Part shown: in pieces, positions 7,301 through 63,238 of the stretch
Layout of the letters: the number at the start of each line of letters is the position of its first letter
Numbering within the stretch: position 1 is the first letter of the stretch
Assembly (NCBI RefSeq): GCF_032118995.1
Contig: NC_092663.1
Span: forward strand, 558,001 to 622,000
Source of the DNA: Asterias amurensis
Lineage: Eukaryota > Echinodermata > Asteroidea > Forcipulatida > Asteriidae
DNA: 64,000 bases
Direction: 5' to 3'
Notes under the pieces: model-generated
What the model was told of the DNA's origin: nothing
The model's database searches: none
What the model saw: the letters and a program-made list of their open reading frames with translations, nothing else
Made by a program: the position numbers and the translations under genes

Positions 7301-8100
7301 TCATCTCAGCTCCATGGGGAGTATACAACCTTAATCAATCAGGTACCCATTTACCCCTGGGTGGAGAGAAGCAATTATAGTGAAGTGTCCTTGCTCAGGG
7401 ACACAAATGTCATGATCGGGATTCAAACCCACACTCTGCTGAACAGAAACACCAGAGCTCGAGTTCGGCACTCTTATCTGCTCAGCCAAAACACCCTACA
7501 AGCAATGTTTGTAAATGTATGTTTATACTGAAAATTAAAAATGAGGCCCTTTCTAATACAGTCTGTAAGCAGTAGTCTACAAAACAAACTGTTTTAAAGG
7601 CAGTGGACACGATGGGTCTTTCGGGACGCTTGGTGGCAGGAGACTTACCGGGTAAAAGCCGTTGTTCTTGGTCATGTGCGCACGCTCAGAACTACAACGG
7701 AAATTTACTTGGTAAGTCTGCTGCCACCTAGTGTTTCAAAGTCTCCCATTGGTAATTACTTAAAATAATTATTAAAATAAAACCTTACTTGGTGACAAGT
7801 AATGGAGAACTGTTGATAGTATAAAACATTGTGAGAAAAAGCTCCCTCAGATGTAGAAAAGTTTTTGAGAAAAAGTAATTTTCCACAAATTTGATTTTAA
7901 TACCTTAGAATTAGATTTTGCGGTCTCGAAATCGAGCATCTGAAAGCACACAACACATTTTCACAGGTTTATTTTGTGCATATTGTTGGACGCACCAAGT
8001 GAGAAGACTGGTCTTTGACAATTACCAATAGTGTCCAGTTTCATTTATGTATAGAATGACTTTATTTGTTTTTCTTATTTTCTTTTTTGTAGATACTTGA
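1304..8100 (+). CDS. BLOC1S1: BLOC-1/BORC subunit 1 (GCN5L1), five coding exons
   Basis: Coding exons are 1304-1364, 4104-4176, 4726-4858, 5544-5628 and 8093-8100, all with GT-AG borders and matching phases, giving 119 aa (the human protein has about 125). The protein starts [20 protein letters not shown], continues [20 protein letters not shown], and carries [20 protein letters not shown] and [17 protein letters not shown], close to human BLOC1S1. It is mostly helical and coiled-coil. The family product is a subunit of BLOC-1 (lysosome-related organelle biogenesis) and BORC (lysosome positioning), and has been linked to mitochondrial acetylation. The last exon adds only Asp-Thr and the stop. 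If the last intron is kept, the stop comes one codon after the splice site, so both forms end almost alike. The start is the first ATG and matches the conserved N terminus. Any upstream exon was not found. Confidence 0.93.
1571..1690. mobile_element. Short MITE, CCGTATGGCGCCACC ends (BLOC1S1 intron 1)
   Basis: The inverted ends are CTTTCCGTATGGCGCCACCA on the left and GTGGTGGCACCATACCAGAAG on the right, separated by about 75 AT-rich bases. A second copy with the same middle (ATATCATTTCATATCA-like and CTCAATGAGATATC) sits at 15477-15600. Confidence 0.7.
3074..3325 (+). pseudogene. 84-codon coding remnant of unknown family (BLOC1S1 intron 1)
   Basis: One frame reads as protein over 84 codons with a single interruption and ends at TGC TAA. 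Segments include [20 protein letters not shown] and [20 protein letters not shown], followed by [20 protein letters not shown]. The W/Y-rich, acid-rich pattern resembles C-terminal parts of uncharacterised invertebrate proteins that I associate loosely with DNA transposons, but I cannot name the family. It has no obvious splice sites and lies in the sense of the host gene. The rest of intron 1 (1691-3073, 3326-4103) is AT-rich, with homopolymer runs near 2941-2957 (G) and 3473-3494 (T) and no other gene seen. Confidence 0.4.
4304..4404. mobile_element. Hairpin MITE, TAGCCCACCTTGTTG ends
   Basis: The left half TAGCCCACCTTGTTG...TCTCTTTTAACA pairs with the right half TGTTAAAAAGAGAG...CAACAAGGTAGGCA. 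A near-perfect copy is at 15207-15336, and one end (CTCAACAAGGTGGGCTA) occurs alone near 4875-4892. Confidence 0.65.
4437..4543. mobile_element. Palindromic MITE, TTAGGACTAG family, copy 1
   Basis: Reference entry for the family. The ends read GGGGTGGATTTCACAAAGAG and its complement, CTCTTTGTGAAATC(G/C)AC(C)CC. The inside is made of short palindromes such as CCTAACTTAGGACTAG, so the whole element folds on itself. There is no coding capacity. This copy is degenerate at its left end (GGTGGATTTTGCAAAAAG). Confidence 0.7.
5076..5433. mobile_element. Two palindromic MITEs, TTAGGACTAG family, copies 2 and 3
   Basis: Copy 2 spans 5076-5219 and copy 3 spans about 5285-5433. They lie head to tail in BLOC1S1 intron 3, separated by about 65 bases that recur before each copy (GGCTG..TTTAGCTGGAAGAGATGTCA and TTGGCTGCAAGAGATGTCAG). 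This suggests that a short stretch carrying the element was locally duplicated. Confidence 0.65.
5640..5905 (-). mobile_element. 3' part of a LINE or SINE with an AAT-repeat tail
   Basis: On the minus strand the piece begins with AGCGCTTTGAGATGCCC and ends in an ATT/AAT microsatellite (5640-5690), the usual layout of an L2/CR1-like 3' end. It lies in BLOC1S1 intron 4. Confidence 0.5.
5922..6017. repeat. GC-rich hairpin repeat
   Basis: ATGCCCGAGGTGCGCGCCATT at left pairs with GAATGGCGCGTTCACCAAGGGCAT at right, and GGCCCAAGGGG pairs loosely with CCCGAGGGCC in the middle. It lies directly beside the TTAA-flanked element that begins at 6029. Confidence 0.55.
6029..6922. mobile_element. 894 bp DNA transposon flanked by TTAA
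   Basis: The ends are inverted repeats of about 70 bp: CCCACACCTGTGACGTCATG at left and CATGACGTCACAGGTGTGGG at right, including CAAATCGCTCCATTAT-type inner sequence. Each end is bordered by TTAA (6025-6028 and 6923-6926), the target duplication used by piggyBac-type transposases. A short open frame starts with ATG at 6175 and ends with TGA at 6274-6276 (33 aa, [17 protein letters not shown] at its start). It has no recognisable domain. No transposase is seen, so the element is probably non-autonomous. Confidence 0.75.
6927..7300. mobile_element. MITE, GGACACTATTGG family, GTGTACCTTCCC subfamily
   Basis: The ends read TTAAAAGGAAGGGTACACTA and GTGTACCTTCCCTTTAA. The inside follows the common family body: CTTGGTGTATCTCAACATATGC, AACACCCTTGTT, TGTTTTATACTATCAACAG. 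It abuts the TTAA of the preceding transposon without a gap. A partial copy of the same subfamily lies at 34413-34506. Confidence 0.75.
7302..7505 (-). mobile_element. tRNA-derived SINE (Leu/Ser-like head), minus strand
   Basis: Read on the minus strand, the head (about 7409-7494) has an A-box-like TGGCTGAGCAGATAAGAG stretch, a long variable arm, and the B box GGGTTTGAATCCCGATC. The body resembles the Leu-type SINEs at 29185-29500 and 18356-18626 (GAATGTCCTTG..., TACCCGG-like parts), but it is more diverged. Confidence 0.55.
7592..8043. mobile_element. MITE, GGACACTATTGG family, with a nested hairpin insert
   Basis: The outer ends are TTAAAGGCAGTGGACAC and AATTACCAATAGTGTCCAG. A second small hairpin element interrupts the left side at about 7626-7737: CGCTTGGTGGCAGGAGACTT pairs with AAGTCTGCTGCCACCTAGTG. 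A related GGCGCTGGTGGCAGCAGACA stretch occurs at 36351. The element ends about 50 bases before the last BLOC1S1 exon. Confidence 0.7.
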
Positions 8101-8593: not shown

Positions 8594-8935
8594 TTTAAAG
8601 ACAGTGGACACTATTGGTAATTGTCGTTTGTCAAAGACCAGCCTTCTCACTTGGTGTATCTCAACATATGCATAAAATAACAAACCTGTGAAAATTGGAG
8701 CTCAATTGGTCGTGGAAGTAGTTGCAAGATAATAATGAAAGAAAAAACACCCTCGTCGCACAAAGTTGTGTGCTTTCAGATGCTTGATTTCGAGACCTCA
8801 AAATCTAATTCCGAGGTCGTGAAATAAAATTTGTGGAAAATTACTTCTTTCTTTAAAACTATGTTACTTCAGAGGGAGCCGTTTCTCACAATGTTTTATA
8901 CTATCAATAGCTCTCCATTGAGAGTAATAACTAAG
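8594..8935. mobile_element. MITE, GGACACTATTGG family, truncated at the right
   Basis: It starts TTTAAAGACAGTGGACACTA, and the body is typical up to TACTATCAATAGCTCTCCATT, but the right terminal repeat is missing. It follows a G-rich run (8571-8588). The stretch 8101-8593 should hold the 3' UTR of BLOC1S1; no clear AATAAA is seen there. Confidence 0.7.
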
Positions 8936-16162: not shown

Positions 16163-36874
<20,712 letters not shown>

Positions 36875-41732: not shown

Positions 41733-42252
41733 GTCCTTGGGTGGATTTCACAAAGGGAGTCCTAACTTAGGACTAGTCTTAGGCAATACTAAGAGATTGG
41801 ACTGGTCCTAAGTTAGGACCAGTAACTGATCCTAACTTAAGACTGGTCCTATCTCTTAGCGTTGCCAAGGACTAGTCCTAAGTTAGGACTACCTTTGTGA
41901 AATCCACCCCTGGACACTATTGGTAATTGCCAAAGACCAGTCTTCTCACTTGGTGTATCTCATGCATAAAATAACAAACCTGTGTAAATTAGAGCTCAAT
42001 TGGTCGCCGAAGTTGCGAGATAATAATTAAGGATAAACACTCTTGTCACACTAAGTGTTGTGCTTTCAGATGCTTGATTTTGTTGAAAATCAAATTCGTT
42101 TAACCTTTATTCTTTCTCGGAAACTGCGTTACTTCAGAGGGAGCCGTTTCTCACAATGTTTTATCAACCTCTCCCATTTACTTGTTACCAAGTAAGATTT
42201 CGTGATTATAATTATTGTGAGTAATTACCAATGTGGCACTGCCTTTTTAAGA
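41733..42252. mobile_element. Palindromic MITE followed directly by a GGACACTATTGG MITE
   Basis: The first (41733-41912) has ends GGGTGGATTTCACAAAGGGA and CCTTTGTGAAATCCACCCC, with a long central palindrome around GGACCAGTAACTGATCC. The second (41909-42252) begins CTGGACACTATTGGTAATTG and ends ATTACCAATGTGGCACTGCC. The same juxtaposition of these two families occurs at 34602-35125. Confidence 0.75.
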
Positions 42253-42930
42253 CAGCACCCCGCCCCCATAACTACTGACAAAGGCCCCCAGTGAAACTCC
42301 ATGCCAACCGTGCCCCCCGCCCTCCCCAGTGAAAATCCATGCCACACCTCCCGCACTCCTTCCAGTGAACTTCCATTCTAAAGAGGTACAATGGTGAGGT
42401 GAGCCTTTTGTTTTCTAATATTATTGAAAATAATTGCTGTTCGCATTAGGCCTATTATTATTCTTGAGACATTTTGGTGTGATTTCGGCATAAGCGCGCT
42501 GAAGTGTGGTATTTTTCCTTATAAGACTAATGTCAAATGATTCAAGCCTTCAATTCTCGCATTTCGAATCATTCCGCGAGATCTCGCGGGAGCCAGTTTG
42601 CCCCTTTGATCTTGGACAGGCACCGGTGATTGGAACCAGCTAAAGCAACCGACAGGTACCCGATTTCCACGCTACGCGAAATAAACATCAACAGAGCAGT
42701 AGAGGTCTGGGTACTCGACGGCTTGATGCCGTGACGCGATATTCAAAATGGCCACCAACCATGCTTGTGAAGTTGTCAACACCGTGGATATACTTACGAT
42801 GATTTGATGTGATTTAATGTCTCTTTGGGTAAGCTTTATCATGCAGCTTATTTAAGTTAATAATGTAGAATAGGATGAGGGCCTCGTGGAAGGCGTGTAA
42901 CCACCTAGTTTGTCATAAAACGGGCAATTC

Positions 42931-43182
42931 TTGTCGCAATTTTATTCCACCTTCATGCTCAACATAAACAACGGCAAGCCGGAAGTAGCTGTAACGTTAG
43001 AGCATAGGTCATTGCAGTGTCATTGCCAATTTGCCGTCAATCAGATACTGGATGAAGAATTCCTCCGTGATCTGATGAAACAATCGACTTTTCTGTGTAT
43101 AGTTCTTATAGATTATCTACTTCAATTCGTGTCGGCCACTTCTACGTGTTTCTTTGTCAGTTTTTGTTTACATGTTATGTAA
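42931..43182 (+). other. Open frame in the left arm, mirrored in the right arm
   Basis: The 83-codon frame contains NINNGKPEVAVTLEHRSLQC and NQILDEEFLRDLMKQSTFLC. Its mirror at 56604-56858 (-) has 84 codons and is nearly identical, with changes such as K to N and S to P. It could be a relic exon of an element protein, or a chance frame kept by arm similarity. I recognise no domain. Confidence 0.35.
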
Positions 43183-43429
43183 CACTGAGCTGCCGTAAAC
43201 TGTTTACCAACCAAAATGCCTGGTGCTCTGACATTCGGAGTCGAAGGCCTACCATCCAAAAGAATTGATACATCATGTTCAAGCGTTGCCTTTCTCATAT
43301 CAAGTTGTAAATCTAAAACTGGTTTGCCACCTATACTGCCGAATGATGATGTAAATTTTTAAAGTCTGAACATGGTCTGAATAAAACTGGCGGGTTTTTT
43401 ATTTTTATCTTTTTAATCGTTTGAAATTT

Positions 43430-43745
43430 CATCCAGATGTGTAATGAAGGGCGAGGTGCACAGAAAAACCTTGGTCTGAGTCGTAGGCAACTTTTTGAGA
43501 TATTGTCTAGTTTTCGATGCCCCCAAATCAAGATTAAAATTAATATTAATTTTAGGCCCTTCCAATTGTTCCAGCCATCTGTAATCCGTAGAGCGTCTTT
43601 TGCACATAAAGAACTTTCTTTGGTTAAATTTTGAGGCAAATCTGAGAGAAATTTTATTTGAGGGTGAAAAAACGTCAAGTTTTATACCCCATGCCGTTTT
43701 TCCAAAAACCTGTCGAAAAAAATTGTGTTTTTCAAAATCGCCTGA
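43430..43745. repeat. Outer, diverged satellite unit in the left arm
   Basis: It shares the order of words with the central satellite: TTTTTGAGATATTG, AAATCAAGATTAAAAT, CCAATTGTTCCAGC, GGTTAAATTTTGAGGCAAAT and GTGAAAAAACGTCAAG. It is clearly older. The mirror unit is at about 56030-56350. Confidence 0.65.
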
Positions 43746-43999
43746 AAACTTGGGTTTAGTCGTCTACCTTAGTAACTTTTTGATGTAATTGTTTTTATTG
43801 CCTGATTTTCGATATAACAATGTCTCAAATAATTATTGTATCAAACTGAATCAAACCAATTGTACCATCACGGCGAGTACCCACCAAGAGCACTGGTTGA
43901 TCCCAGCTAGCCTACTAAAGACTCAGCCACCCAACCCCAATGTACCCCGCTACCTTTTCCACAGCGACCGACAATCCCCAATTCCCATCGAAATGCCAG

Positions 44000-44880
44000 A
44001 CCAACTTCCTCTGTGAACTAATTGTCTAAACCTACATCGTGTGCCTTCGACTCAAATAATTGTTTTGTAAGTCCCCTATTATGCCTATGTTTCCTTGTAA
44101 ACCAATGCGCCATACTTACAGCGTGTGCCTTCCATCCACTCACCAATTTTTTAAATTACAACCAAAGATTCCCCTGTCTATCCGTCAGTAAAGCGTATGC
44201 CTTCCACTCTCAAATTATTTACTAAGTCCAAAGCAAGGATTTCCCTATGCCATTGTACCATGCGTACCATTTCCCCATTAATGAAACTAATTGTCTATCT
44301 TTATGCCTACAGCGTGTGCCTTCAACTCGTCGAATACTTTTTAAGTCCGAACACAAGAGTCCCCTATCTACTACCAATACCCGTCAGTAAAGCGTATTAT
44401 GCCTTCCATTTGCAAATTATTTACTAAGTCCAAAGCAAGGATTTCCCTATGCCATAGAACCATGCGTACCCCTTTTCCCATTAGACTATACAGTGTGTAG
44501 ATTTTAACCCTAATGTTTGAAGTCCGAACCCGTGAGTTTCCCATGCCTATGTATATGTAACCAGCCCACAACTTGTGCATTTCACTCGAAATTACTAAGT
44601 ATAAAGCACTGATTTTACTATGCCATAGCATCATGTGGAAAGTGTTCCCCTCGCAAATTATATACCAAGTATAAAGTATAATATACAAAGTATAAAGCAT
44701 TGATATTCCCATACCATAGTATCCTTTGAAAAGTATTCAACTCGCAAATTATACACTAAGTATAAAGCATTGATAATCCCATACCATAGTATCCTATGAT
44801 GAGTATTCAATTATATACTAAGTATAAAGCACTGAAATCCCATGCCATAGCTTTCTGTGTAAAGTATGAACCGAAGGTTT
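44000..44880. repeat. Headless tail modules, left arm
   Basis: A module containing GCAAATTATTTACTAAGTCC..AAAGCAAGGATTTCCCTATG..CCATA repeats about every 110-170 bases without the tRNA-like head seen further in. The mirrored run is at about 54950-55700. Confidence 0.65.
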
Positions 44881-44904
44881 ATCAGGTCTAAAATGCGAAT
44901 TATT

Positions 44905-45060
44905 CTGGGGGGGACCCAAGTGGGTGTCGTGGGTAGGTGTCGGCCTCCCAAGCAAAGGGTTCCCGGTTCGAACCCCGGTGGTGGCAGCGCGGTTGCCGAC
45001 CGAGAAGTCTCGACACACCAGACAGTGGCACTCACCGCTAGCACTCGCTGAGGAAAGAAA
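44905..45060 (+). repeat. Gly-tRNA(CCC)-like module, left arm
   Basis: AAGTGGGTGTCGTGGGTAGG, an anticodon region GGCCTCCCAAGC, and the T arm CCCGGTTCGAACCCCGG lie on the plus strand, opposite to the other tRNA-like modules of this arm. The mirror module is at about 54721-54905 (-). It looks like the head of a separate SINE. Confidence 0.6.
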
Positions 45061-45159
45061 CTTAAAACTTAAAACTTAAAACGAACCTATGCTCTTTTTT
45101 ATATAAGTTTAAAATAAATTATATAAAAAACATTTTTAAAACGTCTCCAACTTTTCTGA

Positions 45160-46795
45160 AGCTGGATTCGATCCCAGGACCCTCCGGTCCAGAGACCAGA
45201 GCCCTTCCACTGGACCACTGCTCCTTCTTACAAATATGCGTTCGAGTTTAATTTTAAACCTTCGTATGACAAACTTTTAATTATTTTTATAAAAAACATT
45301 TTTAAAACGTCTCCAACTTTTCTGAAGCTGGATTCGATCCCGGGACCCTCCGGTCCAGAGACCAGAGCCCTTCCACTGGGCCACTGCTCCTTCTTACTAA
45401 TATGCGTTCAAGTTTAATTTTAAACCTTCGTATGACAATGTTTTAATTAAAACGTAGTAAAAGAACACCCGGGAATCGAACTCCACACCATTGGGTGTAG
45501 AGCCCGGAGCCCTTCCATTGGGCCACTACTACTCTTACTTCATTTGCGTTCGAGTTTAATGTTATACCTTAGAATGAACAATTTCAAATCGAAATGTAGT
45601 AAAAGAACACACGGGAATCGAACCCCGTACCATTGGGTGTAGAGTCGGAAGCCCTTCCATTGGGCCACTACTACTCTTACTTCATTTGCGCTCGAGTTTA
45701 ATGTTACACCTTAGAAGGAACAACTTTAAATCAAAACGTATTACAGCTTATGCCTTCCACTCGCAAATTATTTACAAGTGTAAAGCAAGGATTTCCCTAT
45801 GCCATAGGATACCGCGCAAACCAATGTTCTCAAGCATACTAAAAGAACACAGATCGGGAATCGAACTCCGCACCATTGGGTGTAGAGCCCGGAGCCCTTC
45901 CATTAGGCCACTACTACTCTTTCTTCATTTGCGTTCGAGTTTATTGCTATACCTAAAATGAACAATTTTAAATCAAAACGTAGTAAAAGAACACACGGGA
46001 ATCGAACCCCGTACCATTGGGTGTAGAGTCGGAAGCCCTGTCATTGGGCCACTACTACTCTTACTTCATTTGCGTTCGAGTTTAATGTTATACCTTAGAA
46101 GGAACAACTTTAAATCAAAACGTATTACAGCTTATGCCTTTCACTCGCAAATTGTTTACAAGTGTAAAGCAAGGATTTCCCTATACCATAGGGAACCGCG
46201 CAAACCAATGTTCTCAAGCGTAGAAAAAGAACACAGATCGGGGTTCGAACTCCGCACCATTGGGTGTAGAGCCCGGAGCCCTTCCATTGGGCCACCACTA
46301 CTCTTAGTTCATTTGCGTTCGAGTTTAATTTTATACCCTAGAGTGAACAACTTTATATTAAAACATATTGTAACTTATGCCTTCCACTCGCATTAATTAT
46401 TGATTAGGGGTTAAGCAAGGATTTTCCTATGCCGTAGGGTACTGCGTAAACTAATGTTCTTCAACCAAGAAAAAGAACACACACCGGGGTTCGAACCCAG
46501 TACCTTTGGCTTCAGAGTCCAGAGCCCTACAACTGTGCCACTGTCCTTCTTCATAAAAAAAGGTTCGAGTTTAAATATAAACCTTAGAATGAATTCAACT
46601 TTAAGTCAAAACGTAATAGCGGGTGCCTTCCACTCGCATGTTATTTATTAGGTATAAAGCAAGGATTTCCCTATGCCATAGGGTTCCGCTTAAACCAATG
46701 TTCTTAAGCGTAGAAAAAGACACACTACGGGGCTCGAACTCAGTACCTCTGCGCTCAGAATCCGGAGTTCTACCACTGGGCCACCGCTCTTCTTA
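45160..46795 (-). repeat. Nine tRNA-like modules, left arm
   Basis: The tRNA-like cores are at about 45163-45226, 45327-45390, 45463-45534, 45604-45675, 45844-45920, 45988-46060, 46228-46310, 46471-46552 and 46716-46793. On the minus strand each has an A box such as TGGCCCAATGGAAGGGC (perfect D stem in most), an anticodon-like stem-loop, and a B box such as GGGTTCGAACCCCGG. Many end in TGTGTTCTTTTT, a Pol III stop. Acceptor stems do not pair. Tails carry GCATAGGGAAATCCTTGCTT and CGTTTTGATTTAAA. Confidence 0.75.
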
Positions 46796-47759
46796 TGAAC
46801 AATGGGTTCAAGTTTAATTATAAACCTTTAAATCAAAACGTATATAGCTAGTGCCTTCCACTCACGTGTTTTACAAGGATTTCCCGGTGCCATAGTACCC
46901 CAGATAATGTAAAGATTGGGACTGGGTACAACAGAGTTGATGCATGCACACATTCGACGGTGTTTGAGATAAATAAAATGCACGGGACTAAAACGGGTCT
47001 ATCTAACTGAGAAAATATCAGCGATTGAAAAAGTCTCTAGAAGCCGGGCAAATCGGGCAAATGGGTTGGGGGACATATTCAAACAGGGGGCGTAACAATG
47101 TGACCAACAAAGCCATTTATTATTATATGTAATAAATATTTGATAATCTAAGGAAATTGAACTCTAAATAAGACACGGGACGGAGTATTCTTTATGTTTT
47201 TATTCAATATTGTTTGAGTTTCTACATTTCACATATGACTGCTCTTCAAATCAATATAATAGAATTCAGACAATAATTGACATACACATTCAAATCTATT
47301 TTAAGCAGCAATTTTTTATTTATTTTTATTTATTTAAAAAGTTAAAATCATTAAAATTTTAATTTAAACGTCAAGTGTTTGTGCATCGTAAAAGATTTTT
47401 TTTTTCTCCAAAGGCGATCAAAGAATACTGACCGAAACGTCAGTTGAGACCAACGGTTACTTTCAGAACCACCCATTTAGAGATGATAGTCATTGCATAG
47501 TGTTACCGCAAACCTGTCCATATCGTATTTCCACAATGCACAATTTTAAATCCAGGGTACAACATCAAAGCATTGCCATAAATAGGCTGTACAAATGCAT
47601 GCAGTAAATAATTAGATTGGAACAATTTTACGACCTCACCACCGATTTCTGGCCGTTTTGTTTTAATCTCCGAATAATCAACGGGAAAACAGCAACCTAC
47701 AGGCCTACTAACTATAACCGAGAACTATATTGAGCAATAACACACCATACCCACTGTGT

Positions 47760-47815
47760 TGTGCACAGTAGACCTACACGTACATGTACATGTACATGTA
47801 CCATGTACATACACA
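47760..47815 (+). repeat. ACATGT simple repeat, left arm
   Basis: CGTACATGTACATGTACATG continues to about 47805. The mirror position (about 51903-51925) has only a short version, so the run expanded or shrank in one arm. Confidence 0.7.
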
Positions 47816-48164
47816 AGCATACCAGCTAACGTAGTGTAAACCTATAGCAAACAAATCACAAACATTGCTTTTACCATGGGTTTGAACGACTTTATATTGA
47901 ATCAGAGTAAACGAGTACACATTAGTCTTGCCTGAACAGATCCCTGAAGATTAAAACTACATCAAAAAGGCTCTAAATATCGTCCACGGAGACAGCCAGA
48001 GTCAACTGCATGGTTGGAGATCATTTTGAATACATGTGTGTACGCGGTAAATTACTGGGTACGAAGCATGGGTTATAAGACCAACTATAGGGTACCCGAC
48101 TATTCGTGTTCTTGTCGCAATGTCGCTTACTTCTTGATATAGCAGTGCCTCCAAAAAGAGAGGT

Positions 48165-51100
48165 TAAAATGAATATGAGACCCATCCCATTGTTCAAGCA
48201 ACCTGTAACTTGGAGACTGTCTTTTATACATGACGAACTTCCTTTGGTTAAATTTTGAGGCAATTCGGAGAGAAAATGTTTCCGAGGCTGAAAAAACGTC
48301 AAGCTTTACCCCCTTGTGGTTTTTTCAAAAATCGGCCGATTTTTTGTATCTCCAAATCTTATGAAAAATTATATATAGGTCAAATAGAGGGCGAGGATCA
48401 CAAAAATCTTGGTTTTAGTCGTCTACGATGGCAACTTTATGAGATATTGCCTAAATCCTTTTACAACGACGGTTCAAAATCAAGATTAAAATGAATATTT
48501 GAGGCCCATCCCATTGTTCCAGCAATCTGTAACTTGAAGACTGTCTTCTACACAAAAAGGACTTCCTCTGGTTAAATATTGAGGCAAATCGGAGAGAAAA
48601 AGTTTTTGAGAGTGAAAAAACGTCAAGCTTACCCCCTTGTGGTTTTTTCAAAAATCGGCCGATTTTTTGTATCTCCAAATCTTATGAAAATTCATATATA
48701 GATCAAATAGAGGGCGAGGATCACAAAAATCTTGGTTTTAGTCGTCTACGATGGCAACTTTATGAGATATTGCCTAAATCTTTTTACAACGACGGTTCAA
48801 AATCAAGATTAAAATGAATATTTGAGGCCCATCCCATTGTTCCAGCAATCTGTAACTTGGAGACTGTCTTCTACACAAAAAGGACTTCCTCTGGTTAAAT
48901 TTTGAGGCATATCGGAGAGAAAAAGTTTTTGAGAGTGAAAAAACGTCAAGCTTACACCCTTGTGGTTTTTTCAAAAATCGGCCGATTTTTTGTATCTCCA
49001 AATCTTATGAAAATTCATATATAGGTCAAATAGAGGGCGAGGATCACAAAAATCTTGGTTTTAGTCGTCTACAATAGCAACTTTATGAGATATTGCCTAA
49101 ATCCTTTTACAACGACGGTTCAAAATCAAGATTAAAATGAATATTTGAGGCCCATCCCATTGTTCTAGCAATCTGTAACTTGGAGACTGTCTTCTACACA
49201 AAAAGGACTTCCTCTGGTTAAATTTTGAGGCAAATCGGAGAGAATAAGTTTTTGAGAGTGAAAAAACGTCAAGCTTACCCCCTTGTGGTTTTTTAAAAAA
49301 TCGGCCGATTTTTTGTATCTCCAAATCTTATGAAAATTCATATATAGGTCAAATAGAGGGCGAGGATCACAAAAATCTTGGTTTTAGTCGTCTACGATAG
49401 CAACTTTATGAGATATTGCCTAAATCCTTTAATAACGACGGTTCAAAATCAAGATTAAAATGAATATTTGAGGCCCATCCCATTGTTCCAGCAATCTGTA
49501 ACTTGGAGACTGTCTTCTACACAAAAAGGACTTCCTCTGGTTAAATTTTGAGGCAAATCGGAGAGAAAAAGTTTTTGAGAGTGAAAAAACGTCAAGCTTG
49601 CCACCCTTGTGGTTTTTTCAAAAATCGGCCGATTTTTTGTATCTCCAAATCTTATGAAAATTCATATATAGGTCAAATAGAGAGCGAGGATCACAAAAAT
49701 CTTGGTTTTAGTCGTCTACGATGGCAACTTTATGAGATATTGCCTAAATCCTTTTACAACGACGGTTCAAAATCAAGATTAAAATGAATATTTGAGGCCC
49801 ATCCCATTGTTCCAGCAATCTGTAACTTGGAGACTGTCTTCTACACAAAAAGGACTTCCTCTGGTTAAATTTTGAGGCAAATCGGAGAGAAAAGTTTTTG
49901 AGAGTGAAAAAACGTCAAGCTTACCCCCCTTGTGGTTTTTTCAAAAATCAGCCGATTTTTTGTATCTCCAAATCTTATGAAATTTCATATATAGGTCAAA
50001 TAGAGGGCGAGGATTACAAAGATCTTGGTTTTAGTCGTCTACGATGGCAACTTTATGAGATATTGCCTAAATCCTTTTACAACGACGGTTCAAAATCAAG
50101 ATTACCCCTTGTGTTTTTTTCAAAAATCGGCCGATTTTTTGTATCTCCAAATCTTATGAAAATTCATATATAGGTCAAATAGAGGGCGAGGATCACAAAA
50201 ATCTTGGTTTTAGTCGTCTACGATAGCAACTTTATGAGATATTGCCTAAATCCTTTAATAACGACGGTTCAAAATCAAGATTAAAATGAATATTTGAGGC
50301 CCATCCCATTGTTCCAGCAATCTGTAACTTGGAGACTGTCTTCTACACAAAAACGACTTCCTCTGGTTAAATTTTGAGGCAAATCGGAGAGAAAAAGTTT
50401 TTGAGAGTGAAAAAACGTCAAGCTTGCCACCCTTGTGGTTTTTTCAAAAATCGGCCGATTTTTTGTATCTCCAAATCTTATGAAAATTCATATATAGGTC
50501 AAATAGAGAGCGAGGATCACAAAAATCTTGGTTTTAGTCGTCTACGATGGCAACTTTATGAGATATTGCCTAAATCCTTTTACAACGACGGTTCAAAATC
50601 AAGATTAAAATGAATATTTGAGGCCCATCCCATTGTTCCAGCAATCTGTAACTTGGAGACTGTCTTCTACACAAAAAGGACTTCCTCTGGTTAAATTTTG
50701 AGGCAAATCGGAGAGAAAAGTTTTTGAGAGTGAAAAAACGTCAAGCTTACCCCCCTTGTGGTTTTTTCAAAAATCAGCCGATTTTTTGTATCTCCAAATC
50801 TTATGAAATTTCATATATAGGTCAAATAGAGGGCGAGGATTACAAAGATCTTGGTTTTAGTCGTCTACGATGGCAACTTTATGAGATATTGCCTAAATCC
50901 TTTTACAACGACGGTTCAAAATCAAGATTACCCCTTGTGTTTTTTTCAAAAATCGGCCGATTTTTTGTATCTCCAAATCTTATGAAAATTCATATATAGG
51001 TCAAATAGAGGGCGAGGATCACAAAAATCTTGGTTTTAGTCGTCTACGATAGCAACTTTATGAGATATTGCCTAAATCCTTTAATAACGACGGTTCAAAA

Positions 51101-51183
51101 TCAAGATTAAAATGAATATTTGAGGCCCATCCCATTGTTCCAGCAATCTGTAACTTGGAGACTGTCTTCTACACAAAAACGAC
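48165..51183 (+). repeat. Central satellite, about 323 bp units
   Basis: ATGAGATATTGCCTAAATCC and GGTTCAAAATCAAGATTAAA recur every 323 bases from about 48440 to 49440, then in a 323+323+180 pattern. Every unit has the 19-base palindrome AAAATCGGCCGATTTTT. Open frames of 75-91 codons repeat on both strands because the units are nearly identical. I found no reason to think they are genes. Confidence 0.9.
49348..51000 (+). repeat. 826 bp higher-order repeat, two copies
   Basis: The block starting near 49348 recurs at 50174, and 49548-50173 matches 50374-50999 as far as I can check, with at most isolated changes (for example AAAAGGAC versus AAAACGAC). Each block holds two full units plus a shortened unit that jumps from AAATCAAGATTA straight to CCCCTTGTG. 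Confidence 0.85.
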
Positions 51184-51545
51184 CAAAGGAAGTTCGTCAT
51201 GTGTAAAAGACAGTCTCCAGGTTACAGGTTCACTGGAACAATAGGATGGGTCTCAAATATTCATTTTAACCTTGATTTTAAACCGTCGTACTATCCGAAA
51301 TGAGGCATTATCTCAAAAAGTAGCCATCGTAGACGACTAAAACCAAGATTTTCCTGCTTTTTTTCGGTCGATTTTTGAAAAAACTACAAGGGGGTAGGTA
51401 AGCTTGACGTTTTCCAGCCTCGAAAACATTTTCTCTCCGAATTGCCTCAAAATTTAACCAAAGGAAGTTCGTCATGTGTGAAAGACAGTCTCCAAGTTAC
51501 AGGTTGCTGGAACAATGGGATGGGTCTCAAATTCATTTTAACCTC
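51184..51545 (-). repeat. Satellite in reverse orientation (start of the right arm)
   Basis: At 51183/51184 the sequence passes from CTTCTACACAAAAACGAC directly to CAAAGGAAGTTCGTCATGTG, which is the complement of the unit. One full unit and a part follow in reverse. This is the turning point of the palindrome. Confidence 0.8.
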
Positions 51546-52919
51546 TCTTTTTGGAGGCACTGCTATATCAAGAAGTAAGCGACATTGCGACAAGAACACG
51601 AATAGTCGGGTACCCTATAGTTGGTCTTATAACCCATGCTTCGTACCAGTAATTTACCGCGTACACACATGTATTCAAAATGATCTCCAACCATGCAGTT
51701 GACTCTGGCTGTCTCCGTGGACGATATTTAGAGCCTTTTTGATGTAGATTTAATCTTCAGGGATCTGTTCAGGCAAGACTAATGTGTACTCGTTTATTCT
51801 GATTCAATATAAAGTCGTTCAAACCCATGGTAAAAGCAATGTTTGTGATTTGTTTGTTTCTATTAGCTATAGGTCTACACTACGTTAGCTGGTATGCTTG
51901 TGTATGTACATGTACGTGTAGGTCTACTGTGCACAACACAGTGGGTATGGTGTGTTATTGCTCAATATAATTCTCGGTTATAGTTAGTAGGCCTGTAGGT
52001 TGCTGTTTTCCCGTTGATTATTCGGAGATTAAAACAAAACGGCCAGAAATTGGTGGTGAGGTCGTAAAATTGTTCCAATCTAATTATTCACTGTATGCAA
52101 TTGTACAGCCTATCTATGGCAATGCTTTGATGTTGTACCCTGGATTTAAAACTTTGAATTGTGGAAATACGATATGGACAGGTTTGCGGTAACACCATGC
52201 AATGACAAGCATCTCTAAATATGGGGTGGTTCTGAAAGTAACCGTTGGTTTCAATTGACGTTTCGGTCAGTATTATCTGATCGCCTTTGGAGAAAAACCA
52301 AATTCTTTTACGATGCACAAACACTTGACGTTTAAATTTTAATTTTAATGATTTTAATTATTTAAATAAAAAAAAATATAAAAAAATAAAAAAATTGCTG
52401 CTTAAAATTAATTTGAATGTGTATGTCAATTATTGTCTGAATTCTATTATATTGATTTAAAGAGCAGTCATAATGTGAAATGTAGAAACTCAAACAATAT
52501 TGAATAAAAACATAAAGAATACTCCGTCCCGTGTCTTATTTAGAGTTCAATTTCCCTAGATTATCAAATATTTATTAAAATAATAATAACTGGCTTTGTT
52601 GGTCACATTGTTACGCCCCCTGTTTGAATATGCCCCCATTCGCCCGATTTGCCCGGCTTCTAGAGACTTTTTCAAACGCTGATATTTTCTCAGTTAGATA
52701 GACCCGTTTTAGTCCCGTGCATTTTATTTATCTCAAACACCGTCGAATGAGTGCATGCATCAACTCTGTTGTACCCAGTCCAAATCTTTACATTACCTGG
52801 GGTACTATGGCATCGGGAAATCCTTGTAAAACACGCGAGTGGAAGGCACCCGCTATAATACGTTTTGATTTAAAGTTGTCCACTCTAAGGTTTATAATTA
52901 AACTCGAACCCATTGTTCA

Positions 52920-54650
52920 TAAGAAGAGCGGTGGCCCAGTGGTAGAGCTCCGGATTCTGAGCGCAAAGGTACTGAGTTCGAGCCACGGCGTGTGTCTTTT
53001 TCTACGCGTAAGAACATCGGTTTAAGCGGAACCCTATGGCATAGGGAAATCCTTGCTTTATACATGCGAGTGGAAGGCACCCGCTATTACGTTTTGATTT
53101 AAAGTTGAATTCATTCTAAGGTTTATATTTAAACTCGAACCGTTTGTTATGAAGAAGGACAGTGGCACAGTGGTAGGGCTCTGGGATCTGAAGCCAAAGG
53201 TACTGGGTTCGAACCCCGGTGTGTGTTCTTTTTCTGGGTTGAAGAACATTAGTTTACGCGGTACCCTACGGCATAGGGAAATCCTTGCTTAACCCCCAAT
53301 CAATAATTAATGCGAGTGGAAGGCATAAGTTACAATATGTTTTGATATAAGGTTGTTCACTCTAGGGTATAAATTAAACTCAAACGCAAATGAAGTAGGA
53401 GTAGTAGTGGCCGAATGGAAGGGCTACCGGCTCTACAACCAATGGTGCGAGGTTCGAACCCCGGTCTGTGTTCTTTTTCTACGCTTGAGAACATTGGTTT
53501 GCTCGGTTCCCTATGGTATAGGGAAATCCTTGCTTTACACTTGGTAAATAATTTGCGAGTGTGAGGCAAATAATACGTTTTGATTTAAAATTGTTCATTC
53601 TAAGGTATAACATTAAACTCGAACGCAAATGAAGAAAGAGTAGTAGTGGCCCAATGGAAGGGCTTCCGACTCTACACCCAATGGTACGGGGTTCGAACCT
53701 CGGTCTGTGTTCTTTTTCTACGCTTGAGAACATTGGTTTGCTCGGTTCCCTATGGTATAGGGAAATCCTTGCTTTACACTTGTAAATAATTTGCGAGTGG
53801 GAGGCATAAGCTGTAATACGTTTTGATTTAAAGTTGTTCCTTCTAAGGTATAACATTAAACCCGAACGCAAATGGCGTAAGAGTAGTAGTGGCCCAATGG
53901 AAGGGCTTCCGACTCTACACCCAATGGTACGGGGTTCGATTCCCGTGTGTTCTTTTACTTCGTTTTGATTTAAAATTGTTCATTCTAGGGTATAACATTA
54001 AACTCGAACGCAAATGAAGAAAGAGTAGTAGTGGCCCAATGGAAGGGCTGCCGGCTCTACACCCAATGGTGCGGGGTTCGATTCCCGATCTGTGTTCTTT
54101 TAGTATGCTTGAGAACATTGGTTTGCGCGGTATCCTATGGCATAGGGAAATCCTTGCTTTACACTTGTAAATAATTTGCAAGTGGAAGGCATAAGCTGTA
54201 ATACGTTTTGATTTAAAGTTGTTCATTCTAAGGTGTAACATTAAACTCGAACGCAAATCAAGTAAGAGTAGTAGTGGCCTAATGGAAGGGCTCCGGGCTC
54301 TACACCCAATGGTGCGGAGTTCGATTCCCGGGTGTTCTTTTACTACGTTTTAATTAAAAAATTGTCATACGAAGGTTTAAAATTAAACTTGAACGCATAT
54401 TAGTAAGAAGGAGCAGTGGCCCAGTGGAAGGGCTCTGGTCTCTGGACCGGAGGGTCCCGGGATCGAATCTAGCTTCAGAAAAGTTGGAGACGTTTTAAAA
54501 ATGTTTTTTATAAAAATAATTAAAAGTTTGTCATACGAAGGTTTAAAATTAAACTCGAACGCATATTAGTAAGAAGGAGCAGTGGCCCAGTGGAAGGGCT
54601 CTGGTCTCTGGACCGGAGGGTCCCGGGATCGAATCCAGCTTCAGAAAAGT
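52920..54650 (+). repeat. Nine tRNA-like modules, right arm
   Basis: The cores start at about 52925, 53155, 53400, 53640, 53882, 54026, 54268, 54410 and 54576. The module at 53155 has a well-paired T arm (CTGGG-TTCGAAC-CCCGG) followed by TGTGTGTTCTTTTT. The anticodon-like loops of several read CTCTACA or TTCTGAG. The order and number match the left arm. Confidence 0.75.
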
Positions 54651-54720
54651 TGGAGACGTTTTAAAAATGTTCTTTATATAATTTATTTTAAACTTATATA
54701 AAAAAGAGCATAGGTTCGTT

Positions 54721-54905
54721 TTAAGTTTTAAGTTTTAAGTTTCTTTCCTCAGCGAGTGCTAGCGGTGAGTGCCACTGCGCGGTGAGTGCCACTGTCTGGT
54801 GTGTCGAGACTTCTCGGACGGCAACCGCGCTGCCACCACCGGGGTTCGAACCGGGGACCGTTTGCTTGGGATGCCGACACCTACCCACGACACCCACTTG
54901 GGTCC
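54721..54905 (-). repeat. Gly-tRNA(CCC)-like module, right arm
   Basis: This is the mirror of 44905-45060. The right copy carries a short extra duplication near 54765-54795 (GTGAGTGCCACTG twice) that the left copy lacks. Confidence 0.6.
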
Positions 54906-57249
54906 CCCCCAGAATAATTCGCATTTTAGACCTGATAAACCTTCGGTTCATACTTTACACAGAAAGCTATGGCATGGGATTTCAGTGCTTTATACTTAGT
55001 ATATAATTGAATACTCATCATAGGATACTATGGTATGGGATTATCAATGCTTTATACTTTATATACTTTATACTTGGTATATAATTTGCGAGGGGAACAC
55101 TTTCCACATGATGCTATGGCATAGTAAAATCAGTGCTTTATACTTAATAATTTCGAGTGAAATGCACAAGTTGTGGGCTGGTTACATAGGCATGGGAAAC
55201 TCATTGGTTCGGACTTAAAACATTTGAGTTAAAATCTACACACTGTATAGTTTAATGGGAAAAGGGGTACGCATGGTACTATGGCATAGGGAAATCCTTG
55301 CTTTGGACTTAGTAAATAATTTGCAACTGGATGGAATAATACGCTTTACTGACGGGTATTGGTAGTATATAGGGGACTCTTGTGTTCGGACTTAAAAAGT
55401 ATTCGACGAGTTGAAGGCACACGCTGTAGGCATAAAGATAGACAATTAGTTTCATTAATGGGGAAATGGTACGCATGGTACAATGGCATAGGGAAATCCT
55501 TGCTTTGGACTTAGTAAATAATTTGAGAATGGAAGGCATACGCTTTACTGTCGGGTAGACAGGGGACTCTTTTGTTGTGATTTAAAAAATTGGTGAGTGG
55601 ATGGAAGGCACACGCTGTAAGTATGGCGCATTGGTTTACAAGGAAACATAGGCATAATAGGGGACTTACAAAATAATTATTTGAGTCGAAGGCACACGAT
55701 GTAGGTATAGAAAATTAGTTCACAGGGGAAGTTGGTCTGGCATTTCGATGGGAATTGGGGATTGTCGGTCGCTGTGGAAAGGGTAGCGGGGTACATTGGG
55801 GCTGGGTGGCTGAGTTTTTAGTAGGCTAGCTGGGATCAACATGACGGTGGGAATATAACTTCTTTGAGGTTCCACCAGTGCTCTTGGTGGGTACTCGCCG
55901 TGATGGTACATTCAATTGGTTTGATTGAGTTTGATACAATTACTATTTGAGACTTTGTTATATCGAAAATCAGGCAATAAAAACAATTACATCAAAAAGG
56001 TTACCAAGGTAGACGACTAAACCCAAGTTTTCAGGCGATTTTGAAAAACACAATTGTTTTCGGCAGATTTTTGAAAAAAAACGGCATGGGGTATGACTTG
56101 ACGTTTTTCCCACCCTCAGAAAACAATTTCTCTCAGAGTTGCTTCAAAATTTAACCAAAGAAAGTTCTTTATGTGCAAAAGACGCTCTACAGATTACAGA
56201 TTGCTGGAACAATTGGAAGGGCCTCAAATTGATATTATTTTTATTCTTGATTTGGGGGCATCGAAAACTAGACAATATCTCAAAAAGTTGCCTACGACTC
56301 AGACCAAGGTTTTTCTGTGCACCCTGCCCTTCATTACACATCTGGATGAAATTTCAGACGATTAAAAAAATAGAAATAAAAAACCCGCCAGTTTTATTCA
56401 GACCATGTTCAGACTTTAAAAATTTACATTATCATTTGGCAGTATAGGTGGCAAACCAGTTTTAGATTTACAACTTGATATGAGAAAGGCAATCTGCAAA
56501 GGCTTAAATATGTTGTATCAATTCTTTTGGATGGTAGGCCTACGACTCCGAATGTCAGAGCACCGGTCATTTGGGTTGGTAAACAGTTTACGACAGCTCA
56601 GTGTTACATAACATGTAAACAACAACTGACATAGAAGAAACACGTAGGAGTGGCCGACACGAATTGAAGTAGATAATCTATAAGAACTATACACAGAAAA
56701 GTCGATTGTTTCATCAGATCACGGAGGAATTCTTCATCCAGTATCTGATTGACGGCAAATTGGCAATGACACTGCAATGACCTATGCTCTAACGTTACAG
56801 CTACTTCCGGATTGCCGTTGTTTATGTTGAGCATGAAGGTGGAATAAAATTGCGACAAGAATTGCCCGTTTTATGACAAACTAGGTGGTTACGCGCCTTC
56901 CACGAGGCCTTCATCCTATTCTACATTATTAACTTAAATAAGCTGCATGATAAAGCTTACCCAAAGAGACATTAAATCACATCAAATCATCGTAAGTATA
57001 TCCACGGTGTTGACAACTTCACAAGCATGGCTGGTGGCCATTTTGAATATCGTGTCACGGCATCAAGCCGTCGAGTACCCAGACCTCTACTACTCTGTTG
57101 ATGTTTATTTCGCGTAGCGTGGAAATCGGGTACCTGTCGGTTGCTTTAGCTGGTTCCAATCACCGGTGCCTGTCCAAGATCAAAGGGGCAAACTGGCTCC
57201 CGCAAGATCTCGCGGAATGATTCGAAATGCGAGAATCGAAGGCTTGAAT

Positions 57250-57300
57250 TGATTCAAGCATGATTCAAGCCTTCGATTCTCGCATTAAAAGTGATGAATA
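57250..57300 (+). repeat. Stub of the giant element's end, inverted beside its right terminus
   Basis: Just outside the right end, ATTCAAGCCTTCGATTCTCG (from about 57272) repeats the terminal sequence in the opposite direction. This suggests an older insertion, a failed excision, or terminal rearrangement. The stretch 57301-58225 is AT-rich and shows no gene; it has a C run and A run at 57569-57590. Confidence 0.65.
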
Positions 57301-58225: not shown

Positions 58226-59060
58226 AGTTAAAGGCAGTGGACACTATTGGTAATTACTCAAAATAATTATTAGCATAAAACCTTTCTTGGTGACGAGTAA
58301 TGGGGAGAGGTTGATAGTATAAAACATCGTGAGAAACGACTCCCTCTGAAGTGACATAGTTTCCGAGAAGGAAGTAATTTTCCACAAATTTGATTTCGAG
58401 ACCTCAGATTTAGAACTTGAGGTCTCGAAATCAACCATCTGAACGTACACAACTTCGTGTGACAAGGGTGTTTTTATTCTTCATTATTATCTCGCAACTT
58501 CGATGACCGTTTGAGCTCAAATTTTCACAGGTTACGTTATGTTATGCATGTGTTGAGATACACCAACTGTGAAGGCTAGTCCTTGACAATTACCAATAGT
58601 GTCCTCTGCCATTAAACCTGCAATATTGTATGTTGATTTAAAGACACTGGACATGTTTGGTAATTGTCAAAGGCCAGTATTCACTTTTGATGTATCTCAA
58701 AATATGCATAACATAACAAACCTGTTAAAATTTGAGCTCAGTTGGTCGTCAAATTTACAAATAGAGAACAATGAAAGCAAAAACGCCCTTGTTGCACAAG
58801 TTGTGTGCTTTCAGATGCTTGATTTCGAGACCTCAAATTCTAATTCTGAGGTCTCGAAATCAAATTCAAATATTTTAGTGAGAAATCGCTTCTGTCTTAA
58901 AAACTATGTTACTTCACAGGGAGCTGTTTCTCATAATGTTTTATACTATCTCCAGCTCTCCAGTTTTATACTTTGTCCAGCTCTCCATTGCTCGTTACCA
59001 AGTAAGTTTTTAATGATAACAATTGTTTTGAGAAATTACCAATTGTGTCCAGTGCCTTCA
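58226..59060. mobile_element. Two neighbouring MITEs of the GGACACTATTGG family, opposite orientation
   Basis: The first (58226-58612) starts TTAAAGGCAGTGGACACTAT and ends CAATAGTGTCCTCTGCC. The second (58638-59060) starts TTAAAGACACTGGACATGTT and ends CCAATTGTGTCCAGTGCCTT. Their internal markers run in opposite orders, so they are inverted relative to each other. Confidence 0.8.
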
Positions 59061-59280: not shown

Positions 59281-59599
59281 AAGGAATAATGACCCAGGAT
59301 TCTGTGTTGTTTTTGTCTTGGAATTTTGACATTAAATTTGCTTTGACACTGTTGCCCATATTGAAGTTTTAAGTAAAATAGTCTTTTACGTTTTGCATAA
59401 TTGAACATTAGGAAAGCTCTTTAAAAGAACTTCCAAGTGTGGCCTTTGAATTACTTATAAAAATTAATGGATGAGCAGTTAATATGACATGGGTAGTCAG
59501 CCCAGTGATCTCCATGACCCCTCCTAAAATTCCAGCCCGGACGCCCACGATTATGAATTGTAAATCAAGAACTTGTGGTTCAGTAACTAGACGCTTGTC

Positions 59600-60510
59600 A
59601 TTTTTAAAATAGCGGTTAGCTCGGTAGCATTTGAACCCAAAACCTTGTCACTGCAAGTCCTGTAGTCTAACCACTGAACCATCACAAAATTGTCATTGTA
59701 AAATGAGCAGTTAGCTGGTAGATTTCGAACCAACAACATTCTGATTGCAAGTCCTGCAGTCCAACCACTGGACCACAGTTAGCTTGGTAGGATTCGAACC
59801 CACAACCTTGTGATTGCAAGTCCTGCAGTCACACTACTGGACCACAGTTAGCTTTATAGGATTCGAACCCAGAACCTTGTGATTGCAAGTCCTACAGCCT
59901 AACCACTGGACCACAGTTAGCTTGGTAGGATTCGAACCCACAACCATGTGGATGCAAGTCCTGCAGTCTAACCACTTGATCACAGTTTGATTGGTGGGAT
60001 TCAAACCCAGAACCTTGTGATTGCAAGTCCTGCAGTCCAACCATTGGACCACAGTTAGCTGGGTAGGATTCGAACCCACAACCTTTTGATTGCAAGTCCT
60101 GCAGTCTAACCACTGGACCACAGTAAGCTTGTTAGGATTCGAACCAACAACCTTGTGATTGCAAGTCCTGCAGTCCAACCATTGGACCACAGTTAGCTGG
60201 GTAGGATTCGAACCCACAACCTTTTGATTGCAAGTCCTGCAGTCTAACCACTGGACCACAGTGAGCTTGTTAGGATTCAAACCAACAACCTTGTAACTGC
60301 AAGTCCTGCAGTCGAACCACTAAACCATCACAAAATTGTGATTCAGTAACTAGGGAACAATACTTATATTAGTCATTGTTAAACCAGCAGTTAGCTTGGT
60401 AGGATTTGAACCAACATATATGTGATTGCAAGTCCTGCAGTCTAACCATTGAACCACAGTTAGCTTGGTAGGATTCAAACCAACAACCTTGTGATTGCAA
60501 GTTCTGACAT
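59600..60510 (-). repeat. 69 bp tandem array of tRNA-like bodies
   Basis: GATTCGAACC (the complement of the B box) occurs at 59791, 59860, 59929, 59998, 60067, 60136, 60205 and 60274, a strict 69-base step, with irregular units at both edges (about 59629, 59720, 60400, 60470). On the minus strand each unit reads TGGTCCAGTGGTTAGACTGC, then AGGACTTGCAATCACAAGG (loop CTTGCAA), then GTGGGTTCGAATCCTAC. The T stem pairs well; acceptor stems are absent, and there is no spacer or TTTT stop between units. Confidence 0.85.
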
Positions 60511-60857
60511 ACCCATCACCGGCAAATGTATGGTGAAAGTGCAACACAAAAGTAAGAACTACTTCATTGCATTTCTAATCCCACCAGGTATTCATCAGCC
60601 ATTGTTAGGGTTGCAAGCTTGTGAGAAGATGAACATAATATAAAGAGAACTAAACATCACTAACACCCCTCCAAGTAGAAGATTTTGCAGATGTGTTCAC
60701 CGGTGTGGCGGTTTCAACTTTCCGCTGTGTTCAGTTTTCCGAATGACCAAATACGGTAATATTACGTCATGCGATGCCTGCGCACAGCAAGCGAAAATAG
60801 TCTATTTTTAGTTGTACTGAGTCTTCCGTTACCCTCCGGTAGCTGTCATGGCCTGAC

Positions 60858-61178
60858 GTGAAGAGCAAATGTCCAGTTGCAATCAGCGATTACTGGAACA
60901 GACGTGATGAACTTTCACAAGCAGACGACATGTTGTTCAAGGGAACTAAAATAGTAATCCCAACATCAATGCGCCGAAACATGCTTGAGAAAATCCATGA
61001 AGGTCACCTCCGCATTGTGAAATGTAAACGTACAGCCAGAGAAGTGATGTATTGGCCTCGCATCAACCAAGATGTACATGTAGCTGACATGGTAACAAAT
61101 TGCCACTCATGTCAAACATACCAGCCAAAGCAGACGGCAGAAACACTCCAGCCGCACCCTACTCCCGACCGTCCATGA
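60858..61178 (+). mobile_element. Fossil Ty3/Gypsy-type LTR retrotransposon fragment (integrase)
   Basis: The stretch encodes part of an integrase: the zinc-binding N-terminal domain with the H-H-C-C pattern (HEGH, then CHSC) and the YWPRINQDV motif usual before it. It is an isolated, broken piece. No LTRs, gag, protease or reverse transcriptase were seen nearby. It appears old. Confidence 0.8.
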
Positions 61179-62867: not shown

Positions 62868-63238
62868 CTTTAAAAGCAGTGGACACTATTGGGGGATACT
62901 CAAAAAAATTTATTAGCATAAAACCTTTCTTTGTAAATGAGTAATGGGGAGAGGTTGATGGTATAAAACATTGTGAGAAACAGCTCCCTCTGAAGTTGTA
63001 CAGTTTTCGAGAAAGAAGGATTTTTCCACGAATTTGATTTCAAGACCTCAGATATAGAATTTGAGGTCTCGAAATCAAGCATCTGAAAGGCGACAACTTC
63101 GTGTGATAAGGGTGTTTTTTCTTTCATTATTATCTCACAACTTTGACGACCGATTCAGCTCAAGGTTTCACAGGTTTGGATACACCAACAGTGAAGGCTA
63201 GTCTTTGACAACTACCAATAGTGTCCAGTGTCTTTTAT
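62868..63238. mobile_element. MITE, GGACACTATTGG family
   Basis: The left end TTTAAAAGCAGTGGACACTA and right end ACTACCAATAGTGTCCAGTG are both present. GGTGTTTTTTCTTTCATTAT and the GAGACCTC-type palindrome are kept. From 63239 to 64000 I see no feature that I can support. Confidence 0.75.

Follow-up and report, generated by a model that had tools for sequence, protein, structure and literature searches.

A stretch of 64,000 nucleotides from Asterias amurensis (assembly GCF_032118995.1, contig NC_092663.1, positions 558,001 to 622,000; hereafter the window, to which all coordinates refer) contains a 14.7-kb mirror composed of two inverted arms and a satellite array between them, with decayed tRNA-like repeats and satellite DNA as its main constituents. 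The mirror is genuine and far beyond chance. The explanation that we tentatively favour, at close to an even chance, is that a large stretch was duplicated in inverted orientation at its own locus, through foldback or template switching, and that the mirror is not an inserted transposon. Observed directly were the arms, the pairing of tRNA-like modules across them, a scar at the right end, a flip of orientation inside the satellite and a 99.5% identity within the satellite. With its scar, the right end points to an accident of copying or repair and not to a proven mobile element.

Arms and centre of the mirror

The comparison of the window with itself in BLAST revealed inverted matches running from 42540 and 57249 inward to 48339 and 51364, respectively, with 86-97% identity in the main pieces. 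The mirroring claimed in the original prediction was thereby borne out by alignment of the window with its reverse complement. In a global alignment, the arms (5801 and 5886 bases) were paired over 5537 columns. They differed by substitution in 199 of these (3.6%), through 114 transitions and 85 transversions, and by nine gaps of at least 10 bp (35, 75, 17, 142, 238, 12, 14, 19 and 10 bp). The differences were unevenly spread (200-column bins with a mean of 7.1, a variance of 24.6 and a maximum of 26), and the most divergent 250-base stretch (10.8%) was the one with the old satellite unit. A perfect 16-bp palindrome was located at 42574-42589, 34 bases inside the left end, and its right copy (57200-57215) carried one change.

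The same ordered cargo in both arms, as proposed originally, was supported by BLAST, the global alignment and the comparison of modules. Each arm opened at its outer end with about 0.9 kb holding a short reading frame and continued inward with an old satellite unit and with headless tail modules. Next came a single tRNA-like module, which has a body and an (AAACTTA)n tail, and then two units of 166 bp containing tRNA-like modules. A further seven such modules, interspersed with tail modules, were followed by other sequence (about 1.3 kb) and finally by the beginning of the satellite. Of the parts named beforehand, the headless tail modules, the old satellite unit, the single module and the central satellite were all found. 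The tail consensus was typed from the window, and both this consensus and the box patterns used below were picked after viewing the sequence.

Two details of the cargo had to be revised. The frame, described earlier as 83-84 codons long, measured 75 (left) and 76 (right) codons from ATG and, in the left copy, 87 codons from stop to stop. No Pfam match was obtained for the left copy, and the two copies differed by one 3-base indel and three substitutions, all three non-synonymous. Because each of these substitutions alters an amino acid, the frame is not evidently a gene and was rejected as such. The single tRNA-like module, which may be SINE-like (short interspersed element) judging by its anatomy, had been called Gly-like; this identity was unsupported, as neither ARAGORN nor Rfam called the module and its best A-box match had two mismatches.

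In the central satellite, the last 1.09 kb was repeated at an 827-bp offset, and the 99.5% identity was that between 49269-50357 and 50096-51183 (BLAST). The right-hand satellite pieces differed from the left unit by about 15%, which exceeded the divergence of the arms. Such a high internal identity against a large left-right difference indicates that the satellite grew later. The centre of symmetry was found near 51187, inside a satellite unit, with the flip falling at nearly matching points of the unit on the two sides, about positions 80 and 90.

tRNA-like modules of the arms

Nine tRNA-like modules were confirmed in each arm, and all 18 pointed outward. The A box matched TRGYNNARNGG without mismatches in 16 modules and with one mismatch in two. 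The A and B boxes were 32 bases apart in 17 of the 18 modules according to the pattern listing, and in the last one (R1, 52932) according to the module alignment. Counted from the start of the A box, a run of at least four T began at 63-66 bases in 14 modules and at 76 bases in four. In a 10-base window, such a run has an 8-9% chance of occurring in the background; the modules, however, are related and not independent. The element gave 64 rows of A/B-box pairs versus a mean of 5.9 (maximum 13) in 30 replicates of order-1 Markov sequences, overlapping rows being counted alike in the element and in the controls.

The nearest relative of a module was located in the opposite arm in 15 of 18 cases, ties counted. 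One-to-one pairs in matching order were formed by L1 and R1 (94.0% identity), L2 and R2 (94.8%), L5 and R6 (96.6%) and L7 and R7 (96.6%). The L4-R5 pair (94.8%) was also in order, with L4 tied with L6. The same-arm neighbours L1 and L2 were 68.1% identical. Exceptions were L3 (nearest to L5), L6 (nearest to L4) and R3 (nearest to R4); R4 was tied between L3, R3 and R6. L8, L9, R8 and R9 clustered closely, with L8 the nearest relative of both R8 and R9. The presence of nearest relatives across the arms in matching order indicates that the tRNA-like array is older than the mirror. The 142-bp and 238-bp gaps between the arms coincided with gains of modules in one arm, so each arm has changed by about one module since the mirror arose.

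The modules had been described as RNA polymerase III (Pol III)-like, which holds for the A and B boxes and the T-runs but not in the sense of intact tRNA genes. None of the 18 modules was called by ARAGORN or by Rfam at the gathering score, and at a permissive threshold four of them reached 20.5-21.8 bits with the Rfam tRNA model (cut-off 29). The minimum-energy folds of the modules showed no cloverleaf; they were uninformative because the true tRNA-Asn of the window, used as a control, also folded without one. This intact tRNA-Asn gene, called by ARAGORN and scoring 56.3 bits in Rfam, lies on the plus strand at 33568-33640; about 220 bases beyond it, Rfam gave another tRNA match on the minus strand (33859-33916, 32.1 bits).

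The conservation of the boxes was compared in eight module pairs, assigned by position and similarity with L6 and R4 left out. Box positions differed between the arms in 10 of 176 cases (5.7%), in comparison with 17 of 418 in the rest of the core (4.1%) and 15 of 334 in the flanks (4.5%); boxes against other positions (32 of 752) gave p=0.42 in the Fisher test. These eight pairs showed no sign of selection on the Pol III boxes since the separation of the arms. As the boxes were kept no better than their surroundings, nothing shows them to be in use. The modules are most readily taken as decayed tRNA-derived repeats whose boxes appear to have been inherited, with no function evident.

A separate tandem array of 69-bp tRNA-like units, mostly without spacers, was identified at 59595-60506 on the minus strand, about 2.3 kb beyond the right scar. 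Its A and B boxes were 33 bases apart and its best Rfam tRNA score was 23.5 bits (cut-off 29). The units may be Cys-like by their resemblance to tRNA-Cys; no program assigned an identity. The existence of this array outside the mirror (approximately 59.6-60.5 kb) shows that tRNA-like arrays also occur apart from the arms, and for that reason the arrays inside the arms carry less weight.

Boundaries and origin of the mirror

On the left side, the flank passed straight into the arm at 42540. On the right side, two forward copies of the left boundary were present directly beyond 57249, spanning 57250-57286. These additional copies were not mentioned in the original prediction, which is corrected here. 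Both tracts include bases from outside the left arm, as an intact left locus serving as the template would give them. Positions 57263-57286 of the second tract and the right arm end (57226-57249) form a perfect 24-bp hairpin stem. Weak matches to microRNA models in Rfam at 57216-57296 (best 34.6 bits, cut-off 70) reflect this hairpin, and a microRNA at the right end was rejected. The hairpin also raised the possibility of Helitron-like ends.

A transposase-made insertion normally leaves a clean target duplication. At the ends of the mirror only TG (2 bp) adjoined both sides. In the flank stretches searched, all shared words of at least 8 bases were the scar copies, and shorter ones, e.g., a 7-base word, were not adjacent. 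The 27-base direct copy was rejected as an ordinary target duplication: between it and the arm lies a further partial copy, and its sequence is inverse to that of the arm end. The 3-kb flanks shared a dispersed repeat family (41910-42246 versus 58604-58230, 76% identity) and two or three more short matches (76-84%), which were not collinear.

Under duplication in place, the locus would beforehand have been a composite of old repeats, i.e., tail modules, tRNA-derived modules and satellite units. A break or a stalled fork in the satellite could have been followed by foldback of the strand within a satellite unit and recopying of the arm in reverse as far as 42540. The free end may then have jumped twice onto the boundary at 42537-42563, leaving the 10- and 27-base templated insertions, before it was joined to the present right flank. 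Afterwards the arms would have diverged to 3.6%, either arm gaining about one tRNA-like module, and the expansion of the central satellite would have come last. We infer the direction of copying, the enzymes and a previously unbroken left boundary; the templated insertion expected at the outer junction was found in the form of the two copies at 57250-57286. To copy a 5.8-kb arm, synthesis would have to be more extensive, of the kind that occurs in break-induced replication or template switching. The covered part of a study on yeast breaks describes short foldback-templated inverted insertions, mostly of about 5-34 bp (PMC11724301), a size similar to that of the 10- and 27-bp copies of the mirror, although the yeast breaks were induced.

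Several points weigh against this explanation. By our own estimate, which depends on the independence of the tracts, the TG and ATG bases would match by chance with a probability between 1/64 and 1/1024; alternatively, they could be the genuine terminus of an element that has lost two bases on the right. A single locus is known, so the mirror may yet be an insertion, and a Tm1 copy at Cg-1, belonging to a proven foldback family, is reported without target duplications in the part of the source covered (PMC3169594). Because the two sides of the satellite differ by more than the arms do, the site of the original fold has been overwritten on one side or on both. The outermost 500 columns were quieter than the remainder (8 of 500 versus 191 of 5037 differing, p=0.011), which could reflect arm-arm conversion or constrained transposon ends. 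The outer part of the arm carries the old satellite unit resembling the core, and a weak inverted match joins 42740-42818 to 48032-47950 (83 columns, 69.9%, E=2e-5); this internal repetition also fits a Tetris-like element.

The same observations are among those that would be accounted for by a non-autonomous DNA transposon of the foldback type (with long terminal inverted repeats) whose arms swelled when tRNA-derived modules and satellite units were amplified in tandem and whose right end was later damaged and repaired by templated insertions. We regard such an origin as possible but rather unlikely. It explains the arms as well as duplication in place does, including their length and internal repetitiveness, the sharp ends and the flanks without collinear similarity. 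The arms of Tetris and Galileo likewise hold tandem repeats in the covered descriptions, and the outer satellite unit, about 80% like the core, recalls the likeness of the Tetris repeats to the outer domain of that element.

The target duplication of at most 2 bp, however, falls short of the 8-10 bp standard of Tetris and Tm1. No transposase domain was detected in one open reading frame (ORF) of the element and seven others, in which the sole domains (RVT_1 and Integrase_H2C2) lay outside the mirror, nor in 10 of the 33 left-arm stop-to-stop ORFs of at least 60 codons; three of these 10 matched unrelated families, and only below the cut-off (E 0.07-0.15). Non-autonomous copies of transposons lack a transposase anyway. 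The terminal 60 bp was not repeated in the left arm (local score 11 versus a shuffled mean of 11.01 and maximum of 14), and its best local score in the right arm was 12, given without a shuffle control. The rest of the window held one 25-bp match to the mirror (E=0.004). The element end, searched as an exact pattern, gave 0 matches in viral and prokaryote contigs, a result of little weight because animal DNA would be expected to give it. Like a foldback element, the mirror is able to fold upon itself; its membership among foldback transposons is not established given the absence of a transposase in the tested ORFs, the short target duplication and the scar at one end. A more far-reaching version, in which the mirror would represent a giant foldback family with 5.8-kb arms of outward-pointing tRNA-derived Pol III arrays, a core supplying satellite and a spread of promoter arrays in mirror pairs, appears doubtful.

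An assembly artefact, in which two haplotypes of the same locus would have been fused head to head within the satellite, is improbable. The original prediction dismissed an assembly error on the grounds of divergence; the arms are truly diverged, but the argument was incomplete, since a difference of 3.6% could also exist between the haplotypes of an outbred animal. This divergence and the differences in repeat number are of a size that haplotypes may show in an outbred marine animal, and the junction would fall in a repeat array, where assemblers err. Better arguments come from the flanks, which share only non-collinear matches whereas those of haplotypes should match throughout, and from the scar, in which extra copies of the end are found as in a real junction. 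Functional Pol III transcription units maintained as a mirror-ordered array, e.g., as a boundary or a source of small RNA, would suit the A and B boxes at their fixed spacing and the T-runs, but this reading is very improbable, considering that the boxes differ between the arms as often as other positions and that no module was called as an intact tRNA by ARAGORN or by Rfam at its cut-off.

Neighbouring features and known foldback systems

The features of the mirror and the dispersed repeat of the window are collected in Table 1. The repeat family is about 350-400 bp long, resembles miniature inverted-repeat transposable elements, may be of an echinoderm (starfish) type by its look and was detected by BLAST in eleven places in both orientations, some of them as tandem or inverted pairs. 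Exact patterns of the dispersed repeat, the satellite and the tRNA-like module gave 0 matches in viral contigs, as expected for animal DNA. Elsewhere in the window, a reverse transcriptase remnant was found at 30341-30811 (RVT_1, E=2.8e-12), with a neighbouring frame (30111-30443) matching RVT_1 below the cut-off, and a remnant of an integrase zinc-binding domain at 60843-61178 (Integrase_H2C2, E=1.4e-12). Two well-kept tandem arrays were also present, one at 17882-18219 (69-bp units, 5 copies, 95% matches) and one at 35118-35288 (33-bp units, 5.2 copies, 98% matches).

Table 1. Coordinates of the mirror, its parts and the dispersed repeat family in the window (TRF, Tandem Repeats Finder).
Feature	Position	Strand	Remarks
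Left arm of inverted repeat	42540-48339	+	BLAST and global alignment to 57249-51364
Right arm of inverted repeat	51364-57249	-	BLAST and global alignment to left arm
75-codon frame, left copy	42955-43182	+	From ATG
76-codon frame, right copy	56604-56834	-	From ATG
Old satellite unit, left	43525-43708	+	About 80-82% like central units (BLAST); right copy 56253-56060
Headless tail modules, left	44120-44850	+	Right 55616-54967; BLAST with tail consensus
Single tRNA-like module	44902-45082	+	B box GGTTCGAACCC, body, (AAACTTA)n tail; points inward; right copy about 54915-54718, minus strand
Two 166-bp units with tRNA-like modules L9, L8	45122-45449	-	Right copies 54351-54678, plus strand
tRNA-like modules L7 to L1, tail modules interleaved	45455-46870	-	Right R1 to R7, 52820-54347, plus strand
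Central satellite array	48161-51183	+	About 324-bp units; unit BLAST and TRF
Satellite orientation flip	51176-51199		50909-51176 aligned locally to 51422-51199 reversed
Scar tract 1	57250-57259	+	Exact 10-base direct copy of 42538-42547; 2 bases (TG) outside left arm
Scar tract 2	57260-57286	+	27-base direct copy of 42537-42563, one difference; 3 bases (ATG) outside left arm
Dispersed repeat, places 1-6	6941-7300, 7748-7954, 8595-8919, 16504-16846, 26401-26637, 27238-28021		BLAST
Dispersed repeat, places 7-11	31370-31748, 34773-35129, 41910-42251, 58228-58962, 62868-63178		BLAST

The following comparisons refer to the covered parts of the cited papers. The closest system in architecture is Tetris, a foldback element of Drosophila virilis with arms of up to 1,735 bp, tandem repeats of about 220 bp that seeded satellite arrays and no conserved ORF; its repeats are about 80% identical to its outer domain over 37 bp (PMC4079207). 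Shared with the mirror are the repeat-bearing inverted arms divided into domains, a non-coding middle and arm repeats tied to a young satellite. The mirror differs in its arms of about 5.8 kb, the tRNA-derived modules among its repeats, the lack of an 8-10 bp target duplication and its single known locus.

Galileo, of the P superfamily, has foldback-like ends, arms of 0.5-1.2 kb and a known transposase, for which the arm repeats hold binding sites (PMC3688188). The mirror resembles it in the long, internally repetitive inverted arms, but no transposase was found in the ORFs tested. The Mutator/foldback family Tm1 of root-knot nematodes has arms that are on average 93.15% identical within one element, 8-10 bp target duplications in 45 of 53 complete elements and, in some copies, a putative transposase; short non-inverted motifs may sit outside its arms (PMC3169594). 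Its composite inverted arms are similar to those of the mirror, in which neither an 8-10 bp target duplication nor, in the ORFs tested, a transposase was found. The covered texts mention no tRNA-derived modules in the arms of Tetris, Galileo or Tm1. Sea-urchin TU and plant FARE elements share the general foldback architecture; sea-urchin and Arabidopsis foldbacks are cited in PMC4079207 and FARE in PMC3169594.

Variable-number tandem tRNA-related units are also known from the tRNA-Cys clusters of Arabidopsis, which consist of tandem tRNA genes in 0.4-kb units of variable number and are accompanied by putative transposable elements (PMC10701932); unlike the modules of the mirror, those are true tRNA genes, and no mirror is mentioned in the covered text. 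No foldback element with tRNA-derived arms was present among the matches listed in the open-licence literature. Should the mirror be a transposon, we would know of no earlier foldback family with arms made of tRNA-derived arrays. If it was instead duplicated in place, it would be a well-preserved natural record of the formation of a multi-kilobase palindrome, in which the flip inside a satellite, the foldback scar at the far end, the separate turnover of modules in each arm and the growth of the satellite would be recorded as steps.

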